NCBI GenBank assembly: GCA_938030895.1
Contig: CALHIV010000007.1
Span: 124,001-188,000, forward strand
From: an uncultured Nitrososphaerales archaeon
GTDB lineage: Archaea; Thermoproteota; Nitrososphaeria; Nitrososphaerales; Nitrosocaldaceae
Length of the DNA: 64,000 nucleotides
Direction: 5' to 3'
The position numbers were made by a program, and so were the translations under genes. Of this stretch, positions 16,780-51,301 are shown one piece after another (within the stretch, counting starts at the first letter, position 1; each line of letters starts with the position of its first letter). Below the pieces are notes generated by a model. The model worked only from the letters and a program-made list of their open reading frames with translations, ran no database searches and was not told the DNA's origin.

Positions 16780-17442
16780 GTGGATCTAGAGAGGTTCACA
16801 GAGGATATAGAGCATGTTGCAGCAAAGTTATCGAACAATGAGGAGCAACCAGTGCTCAAGAGGATCAACTATGTGAAGCAGAGGCTCATAGAACTCTACA
16901 AGCGTAATCTTGTGAAGATAAACCATTCTGTCCTAGAACTGATATGCGCCAAGCATCTCATAAAGTATGGGTATGATGTTGATGTTGAGAGACAGTTGAA
17001 CGATGTGCTTATATGCGATATTTATGCAAGCAAGGGCGATAATGTATTCATAGTTGAGATAGAGACTGGGTTTGTCCCTCCAGAGCATGCTCTAGATCCT
17101 ATAGCATATAGTGCAGCAAGGGTAGCAAGTAAGATATCTAGGTATAGTGCATTCGCTGGCAAGTTCGCGTTGGCAACCCCTCTACTAAGCATACTACCAG
17201 TCCAAGAACTGTTCCTGAAGCCACCAAGGTATAGGAGTAAGGATGATATAGCGAAGGTAAAGGCACTATGCGATAGATACTACTCAAATCCTCCAATAGG
17301 CATGGAGGAGATAAAGAATGCTAGACTACACTCCATCATGTTGATAAATGCTGATGATGCAAGAGTTGTAGAGGTCGATCCAGATACTTACGTTGAGGGT
17401 ATTAGAACAAGTACTGCTAATATTGGTATCAGATTTTACTGA
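16780..17442 (+). CDS. Hypothetical protein with PD-(D/E)XK nuclease-like core
   Basis: A 220-residue protein starting at GTG with a G-rich upstream sequence. Residues 47-100 read like a restriction-endonuclease fold: helix 'SVLELICAKHLIKYGYDVDVE', then 'DVLICDIYASKGDNVFIVEIETG', where Asp and 'E-I-E' could form the metal site (the usual Lys is replaced by Glu or lies elsewhere). The rest is mixed alpha/beta with 'PIAYSAARVASKISRYSAFAGKFALATP'. Likely a lineage-conserved protein. Nuclease activity is an inference from pattern. It may be co-transcribed with the JAMM protein upstream. Confidence 0.65.
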   Translation: MDLERFTEDIEHVAAKLSNNEEQPVLKRINYVKQRLIELYKRNLVKINHSVLELICAKHLIKYGYDVDVERQLNDVLICDIYASKGDNVFIVEIETGFVPPEHALDPIAYSAARVASKISRYSAFAGKFALATPLLSILPVQELFLKPPRYRSKDDIAKVKALCDRYYSNPPIGMEEIKNARLHSIMLINADDARVVEVDPDTYVEGIRTSTANIGIRFY

Positions 17443-17472
17443 CTCTAGTATTAAGAATCTGAATCAGTAATG

Positions 17473-17480
17473 TTTATATC
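17473..17480 (+). promoter_or_regulatory. TATA-box promoter for the structured RNA
   Basis: TTTATATC lies about 26-30 bases upstream of the start of the stable P1 helix at 17504, which is the spacing expected from an archaeal TBP site to a transcription start near 17500. Confidence 0.55.
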
Positions 17481-17499
17481 ATTCCTCTCCTATAATAGT

Positions 17500-17735
17500 A
17501 GTAGGTCATCCGCCAGGAGAAGGAGCGATCCACCAAGCAGGCCTGGCATCAAGGGAAGCCTTGGTGTCCATATGGCTGGTGGTCGCCTCTATCAGGCGGA
17601 GGAGGATACAGGGAAACCTGTAGAGACCTGCAGGGTAGAGGCGAGGGCCAACTACGCCTATGCTGGGTCTAACCTCCAAGCAGCATAGGTGTAGAAAGCC
17701 ACATACTCCTGAATGTGGATGACCACACCTCACTT
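17500..17735 (+). ncRNA. Highly structured RNA, about 220 nt, class not recognised
   Basis: This GC-rich island in AT-rich surroundings has an archaeal TATA box upstream and a closed fold. P1 pairs 17504-17511 (GGTCATCC) with 17717-17724 (GGATGACC). A second short helix pairs AGGAG 17515-17519 with CTCCT 17706-17710. Inside are three arms: a long hairpin 17527-17583 with a GAAG loop; a stem 17584-17590/17637-17643 (CGCCTCT/AGAGGCG) enclosing TACAGG-GAAA-CCTGTA; and a 14-pair hairpin 17653-17694 (CTACGCCTATGCTG/CAGCATAGGTGTAG, one G-U). I do not find RNase P CR-I/CR-V signatures or an SRP helix 8 motif, so I leave it unclassified. It could still be a divergent RNase P RNA. Short reading frames across it are not credible genes. 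Confidence 0.7.
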
Positions 17736-50996: not shown

Positions 50997-51107
50997 AAGA
51001 TGGATAGTTTAATCTTCATATGTAACATCATATACTTACACCTGTGTAAGGTAAAGATTATTTATCATACCATGGGTAACGATGTATGTACATACGTATA
51101 GGAGTAT

Positions 51108-51181
51108 GGGTGCGTCGTCTAGTTGGTTAGGATACCTGCCTTACACGCAGGTGGTCGGCGGTTCGAGTCCGCCCGCACCCA
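51108..51181 (+). tRNA. tRNA-Val (UAC anticodon)
   Basis: The acceptor GGGTGCG pairs CGCACCC, with A as discriminator. The D arm is GTCTAGTTGGTTAGGAT, the anticodon stem CCTGC/GCAGG with loop CTTACAC gives anticodon TAC, and the T arm is GGCGG-TTCGAGT-CCGCC. No intron; CCA is not encoded. An AT-rich box (TTTATCAT, 51061-51068) lies upstream. Confidence 0.97.
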
Positions 51182-51301
51182 TAGAATATTCAAACCAACT
51201 GCTAATATTGTTCTAGGAAGAATCTATATGAACATAAATTGACCATAGTATTAACAATCTTCTACTAGCATGATAATAATCTTATACCCTTATCTTCTCA
51301 T

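Follow-up and report, generated by a model that had tools for sequence, protein, structure and literature searches.

The stretch of DNA analysed here, called the window in what follows, covers 64,000 nt (G000:C7:124001-188000) of Candidatus Nitrosocaldus, a hot-spring ammonia-oxidising archaeon. On its forward strand, a gene for a nuclease-like protein is followed by promoter elements and a segment which, judging from the comparison of sequences, almost certainly encodes a structured, trans-acting RNA belonging to a previously undescribed class (table 1). The earlier note on this DNA had described such an RNA with its own promoter; the recurrent nuclease-like neighbor and the distribution of the RNA across the phylum are absent from it. 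The sole Rfam or ARAGORN match in the window is a tRNA-Val (TAC) at 51107-51182.

Table 1. Features of the RNA locus in the window, with the loci of the second structured element found in other genomes
Feature	Position	Strand	Remarks
Nuclease-like protein, PD-(D/E)XK type, 220 aa	16780-17442	+	Recurrent neighbor; proposed partner of the RNA
TATA box TTTATAT	17473-17479	+	Centre 28 nt upstream of P1; read from the sequence
AT-rich element TATAATA	17491-17497	+	Directly before the RNA; second A/T peak at -13 to -10 in 71 homologues
RNA core, 221 nt	17504-17724	+	Fold z, conservation limits, covariance-model matches
P1, 5' strand	17504-17513	+	Pairs with 17715-17724; 10 pairs
P2, 5' strand	17514-17519	+	Pairs with 17706-17711; 6 pairs
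Arm P3, hairpin	17530-17582	+	[A/G]AAG tetraloop cap; GAAG at 17555-17558
Arm P4	17583-17644	+	Tip hairpin with GAAA/GNRA tetraloop
Arm P5	17646-17700	+	Most conserved core; 3x3 internal loop GGC[NAA]CC ... GG[AAA]GCC
Joining strand ACAU(A)	17701-17705	+	P5 to P2; near invariant, except in family f32
A-R-N bulge, 3 nt	17712-17714	+	Separates P2 from P1
P1, 3' strand	17715-17724	+	Pairs with 17504-17513
Second-element loci	L184, L182/L183, L186, L195-L204, L207, L209-L212		Mostly divergent to the gene

Promoter and fold of the RNA

The promoter box and the compositional contrast reported earlier both hold. The TTTATAT box is identical in five of the six Nitrosocaldus genomes, the remaining one (G005) having CTTATAT, and the promoter sequence is kept in the homologues, since among 71 of them a seven-base A/T run peaks at -31 to -29 from P1. 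GC content is 0.55-0.60 within the RNA versus 0.28-0.43 in its immediate flanks. The AT-rich element directly preceding the RNA we take, from general knowledge of archaeal promoters, to be a proximal promoter element (PPE). Because A/T elements near -28 and -10 recur across lineages, most homologues appear to possess promoters of their own rather than to be products of processed 3' untranslated regions. The two ends of the RNA would be those set by P1 and by the limits of conservation. In many genomes of family f10 (L053-L069), a conserved CAACCAAATATCA lies just 3' of P1, which may represent either an extension of the RNA or the promoter of the next gene.

The RNA has a minimum free energy of -117.6 kcal/mol, compared with a mean of -76.8 (sd 4.6) for dinucleotide-shuffled sequences (z = -8.9), and none of 200 shuffles reaches its value. 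In the minimum-energy architecture P1 closes the molecule, continues into P2 and encloses three arms, the last point having been anticipated correctly, while several helix limits given in the earlier note need revision. Its P1 strands, GGTCATCC at 17504-17511 and GGATGACC at 17717-17724, can be read directly from the sequence, but the helix extends to ten pairs and runs, through a three-nucleotide bulge absent from that description, into P2. The long hairpin is present with the limits of arm P3 instead of 17527-17583; the GAAA-capped hairpin likewise exists, though as the tip of arm P4 and not as a stem of its own, and this tip is missing or longer in some lineages. The third arm, described as a hairpin of 14 pairs at 17653-17694, is also found, with a stem of 13 pairs (17652-17664/17682-17694).

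Conservation is concentrated in P5, for which the core consensus is aGGGC.aACc...gGaAAGCCaCAT. Further conserved elements are the GAU preceding P3, the [A/G]AAG loop of P3, the P5 segment GGGC-NAACC ... GGAAAGCC-ACAU, and the A-R-N bulge, beside which the outermost C-G pair of P2 is nearly invariant (66 of 71 sequences). No pseudoknot signal was seen among the covarying columns: the 31 best column pairs, without exception, are part of the secondary structure, and what is left resembles clade signal.

Conservation, distribution, and relation to known RNAs

All six Nitrosocaldus genomes retain the RNA between the same flanking genes, with 88-92% identity over its length, and conservation begins and ends sharply at the limits of P1. 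A MAFFT alignment of these six species, which is not fitted to structure, has changes on both sides in 8 of the 75 predicted pairs, and just four of its cells are broken or gapped. The later model-based alignments are fitted and lean towards structure; in that of 71 sequences, two-sided changes occur at 71 of the 75 pairs, and the share of cells that pair is 88%, compared with 61% after shuffling and 33-40% after sliding. Covariation is present in every helix of the closed multi-arm fold, P1 having two-sided changes at all ten pairs and 96% of its cells paired, and the most distant group taken by itself still shows two-sided changes in 66 of the 75 pairs. Covariation, whose absence the earlier note named among the signs against a functional RNA, is thus present in each of the three data sets. 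At the level of sequence, an RNA fold under purifying selection, a conserved TATA-type promoter and retention throughout the genus and beyond are established.

Among the changes seen in the six species, those from A-U to G-U and from U-G to U-A are tolerated on the forward strand only and thereby identify it as the RNA strand. They also bear on the idea that the locus is a DNA-level feature, such as an inverted repeat or a recombination site, or a chance structure. Although the six sequences partly align in reverse complement, this follows from their hairpins, and the G-U changes that fit a single strand, the correctly placed promoter elements, the covariation in every helix and the lack of recognised mobile-element genes nearby make a DNA feature exceedingly improbable. 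A coding reading of 17470-17688 was rejected because single-base insertions and deletions between the species disrupt any frame.

Three covariance models of increasing depth were used. The first (R1, six sequences) found homologues in the order; the second (R2, 15 sequences) detected the RNA in 57 of 300 genomes of the order, belonging to 19 genera, as well as in one further genome of the same class and five outside it; the third (R3, 71 sequences) added further homologues. Together, they place the RNA in at least 80 genomes, among them members of two additional classes of the phylum, and its distribution is patchy across lineages. As a guess, families f32, f37 and f52 would be Methanomethylicia-like and the class of genome G392 Bathyarchaeia-like. 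The members of the family share the fold with its covariation, the P5 core and the promoter elements near -28 and -10. In some genomes there are two to six copies at unrelated places, as in genome G175, where six diverged copies (L074, L079, L081, L082, L091, L103) have unrelated neighborhoods. In families f9, f13 and f18 (L049, L068, L070, L077, L094, L143), carB, guaA and purine genes take the place of the nuclease-like gene in the vicinity of the RNA, these gene names being our presumptive assignments from reading the sequences.

Could this RNA be a known one in disguise? With its size, closed terminal helix and own promoter it has the outward appearance of RNase P or SRP RNA, and the earlier note had left the choice between a very divergent essential RNA and a new class. 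None of the 4227 Rfam families matches the RNA or the homologues tested at the gathering threshold, nor does any match either of these at relaxed thresholds; a known-RNA identity, which such a match would have indicated, finds no support there. The failure to recognise signatures of RNase P or SRP RNA was also correct, as neither the archaeal RNase P model (RF00373, CR-I to CR-V) nor the archaeal SRP model (RF01857, helix 8) matches the locus, even at relaxed thresholds. Moreover, the same genome has its own full-length RNase P RNA (233 bits) and SRP RNA (147 bits) as separate genes elsewhere, and this eliminates the first branch of the choice for these two RNAs, while the covariation and the Rfam result favor the second. 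We therefore regard it as highly improbable that the locus encodes a known RNA, whether RNase P, SRP or another, in strongly diverged or duplicated form. The literature searched yielded no transcriptome, and in it we found no description of this RNA class, of the second element class or of the nuclease-like protein discussed below, which is not in itself proof of novelty.

Guide and mobile-element readings were also considered. A guide RNA was dropped as a candidate, for the six species show no variable segment. A linked TnpB, IscB or Cas gene and a variable guide segment, as for an omega RNA or tracrRNA, are missing too: the clustered neighborhoods share no transposase-like neighbor, and the RNA has no hypervariable segment in the six species. 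No recognised mobile-element genes surround the RNA in these neighborhoods, multicopy loci included. Carriage by mobile elements was likewise discarded, given that the one pattern match in IMG/VR is unsupported by the covariance model and no plasmid matched.

The nuclease-like neighbor and a second structured element

When the genes around the RNA loci are clustered, one family stands out, that of the protein encoded at 16780-17442. This protein matches no Pfam, NCBIfam or PADLOC family and has no credible sequence relative or profile match in the PDB. Its AlphaFold2 model (pLDDT 92.8) retrieves PD-(D/E)XK nucleases in Foldseek, among them XisH, Can2, Cas4 SSO0001, Bax1 and EndoMS, the best PDB fold match being a CdiA-CT toxin domain; the order of elements and the Foldseek probability agree with this superfamily, the TM-scores being modest. 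Residues E53, D80, E93 and E95, the putative active site, are invariant in all aligned proteins, including those of genomes in which the RNA was not detected. Nuclease activity is a prediction from a PD-(D/E)XK-like fold, and we call the protein nuclease-like. Its family occurs in 141 of 300 genomes of the phylum.

Of 75 genomes bearing the RNA, 43 have the gene at a distance of no more than 1.3 kb; the two are not adjacent in the other 32, for some of which the stretches examined are short. The arrangement varies: gene and RNA are convergent, with abutting or nearly abutting ends, in families f6, f8, f32, f37 and f52; in f1, f2 and f10 both are on one strand, with the RNA downstream of the gene in f1 and f2 and 0.7-0.8 kb upstream of it in f10. 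When model R3 was applied to the surroundings of the gene in genomes first scored as RNA-negative, seven of eight loci in another class proved to have the RNA directly beside the gene (24-53 bits, E 9e-15 to 7e-6), the best of the remaining 22 loci in this search reaching 14 bits. In a sample of 101 genomes of the order, the protein is present in 27 of 31 RNA-positive versus 27 of 70 RNA-negative genomes, a count that ignores relatedness. The recurrence of the RNA across the phylum, usually beside the same nuclease-like gene, suggests a joint function, and we lean towards a functional link between the two on this comparative evidence. Since the protein is distributed more widely than the detected RNA, and since its putative active site is intact also where the RNA was not detected, it does not strictly need the RNA.

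The gene has a further association. In families where the window's RNA class was not detected, another element that folds strongly occupies the space upstream of the nuclease-like gene, with z of -6 or below at 19 of 27 loci versus 2 of 64 control genes, a comparison that is approximate because the controls come from other loci of the phylum and not from the same genomes. This element, about 135-200 nt long and covarying, mostly folds best on the strand divergent to the gene and matches no Rfam family; several copies are preceded by TATA-like boxes in the sequence. In family f34, 18 of its 51 pairs show two-sided changes. The elements of f34, f29, f25 and f66 have common ends, GRAGYAGGCU ... 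GGCUUAGAC, which vary slightly and adjoin the closing helix.

A real possibility, to which we give somewhat less than even weight, is that the RNA has an independent housekeeping or regulatory role, for example as a 6S-like or Y-RNA-like protein sink, and that its proximity to the gene is inherited gene order. Adjacency could indeed reflect very old synteny; the RNA is unlinked to the gene in f9, f13, f17, f18, f38 and most f7 genomes, being near carB or guaA in several; it is multicopy in some genomes, and the protein was not seen in four RNA-positive ones (G022, G080, G093, G094). However, archaeal classes rarely share gene order without selection, these neighbors persist even though their orientation and side vary, and elsewhere the same gene is accompanied by a second, different structured element. 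The case for cooperation of RNA and protein is built on such evidence, namely a neighborhood kept between classes, the search beside the gene, co-occurrence and the second element class.

Improbable, in our judgment, is a toxin-antitoxin-like pair, loosely of type III, in which the RNA would inhibit the nuclease. The patchy distribution of the RNA and the setting of a compact RNA beside a nuclease-fold protein with a match to a CdiA-CT toxin domain would suit it. Yet the RNA contains no tandem repeats, its neighbor resembles PD-(D/E)XK proteins and not ToxN/AbiQ, the same position is kept throughout the genus, the gene persists without the RNA, and neither a plasmid or virus copy nor a PADLOC match was found.

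Proposed function and comparison with known systems

The best explanation, which we hold to be modestly favored, is that the RNA is the RNA part or a regulator of a ribonucleoprotein with the protein of 16780-17442. In molecular terms, it would be transcribed from P1 to P1, would form a compact multi-arm scaffold and may then serve a complex with the PD-(D/E)XK-like protein either as its RNA component or as its regulator. The binding site for protein or substrate would be the conserved core, comprising the GGC-NAA/AAA-GCC loop of P5, the ACAU joiner and the P1/P2 bulge, the outer parts of arms P3-P5 being presumably structural. As the RNA lacks a hypervariable segment within the genus, a programmable guide is unlikely; a nuclease controlled, scaffolded or targeted to a fixed site seems more probable. 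Each specific mode, that of cofactor or that of inhibitor, is by itself unlikely. It is a serious possibility, at somewhat less than even odds, that the nuclease-like family forms RNA-protein complexes with lineage-specific RNAs: the window's class and the second, apparently unrelated class that would be divergently transcribed elsewhere. Archaea would then possess a nuclease system, dependent on RNA or controlled by it, that was not known before.

To our knowledge, conservation across an archaeal phylum is seen in very few large structured RNAs, namely rRNA, RNase P RNA, SRP RNA and guide RNAs. The RNA of the window, which is neither in Rfam nor in the papers found, occurs both in thermophilic ammonia oxidisers and in distant classes, and the candidate partner with a nuclease fold opens its function to direct tests. 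Should the pairing be real, it would define an RNA-nuclease complex of a new kind, the same gene being accompanied elsewhere by a second RNA class.

Archaeal RNase P RNA and SRP RNA resemble the window RNA in their closed terminal helix, similar size range and apparently independent transcription, but both are separately present in the genome and their models do not match it. Type III toxin-antitoxin systems (ToxI-like) also have an RNA adjoining a nuclease-like gene, whereas the RNA of the window has neither tandem repeats nor a ToxN-type toxin, has its own promoter, is often convergent with the gene and is chromosomal and stably kept. The neighboring protein resembles the PD-(D/E)XK superfamily in its fold model, which retrieves members, and in its invariant E...D...ExE residues; it differs in matching no family or PDB profile and in having E instead of the K of ExK, a substitution also present in BamHI. 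OLE RNA is a bacterial RNA of about 600 nt with a membrane protein as partner; that of the window, in contrast, is archaeal, about 220 nt long, has a neighbor of nuclease-like fold and matches no Rfam family. There is nevertheless a parallel with OLE RNA and OapA: OLE is presented as a conserved structured RNA which works in a ribonucleoprotein while its exact role is unknown (PMC11332333), and the window RNA is likewise conserved and structured, a ribonucleoprotein being what we propose for it.
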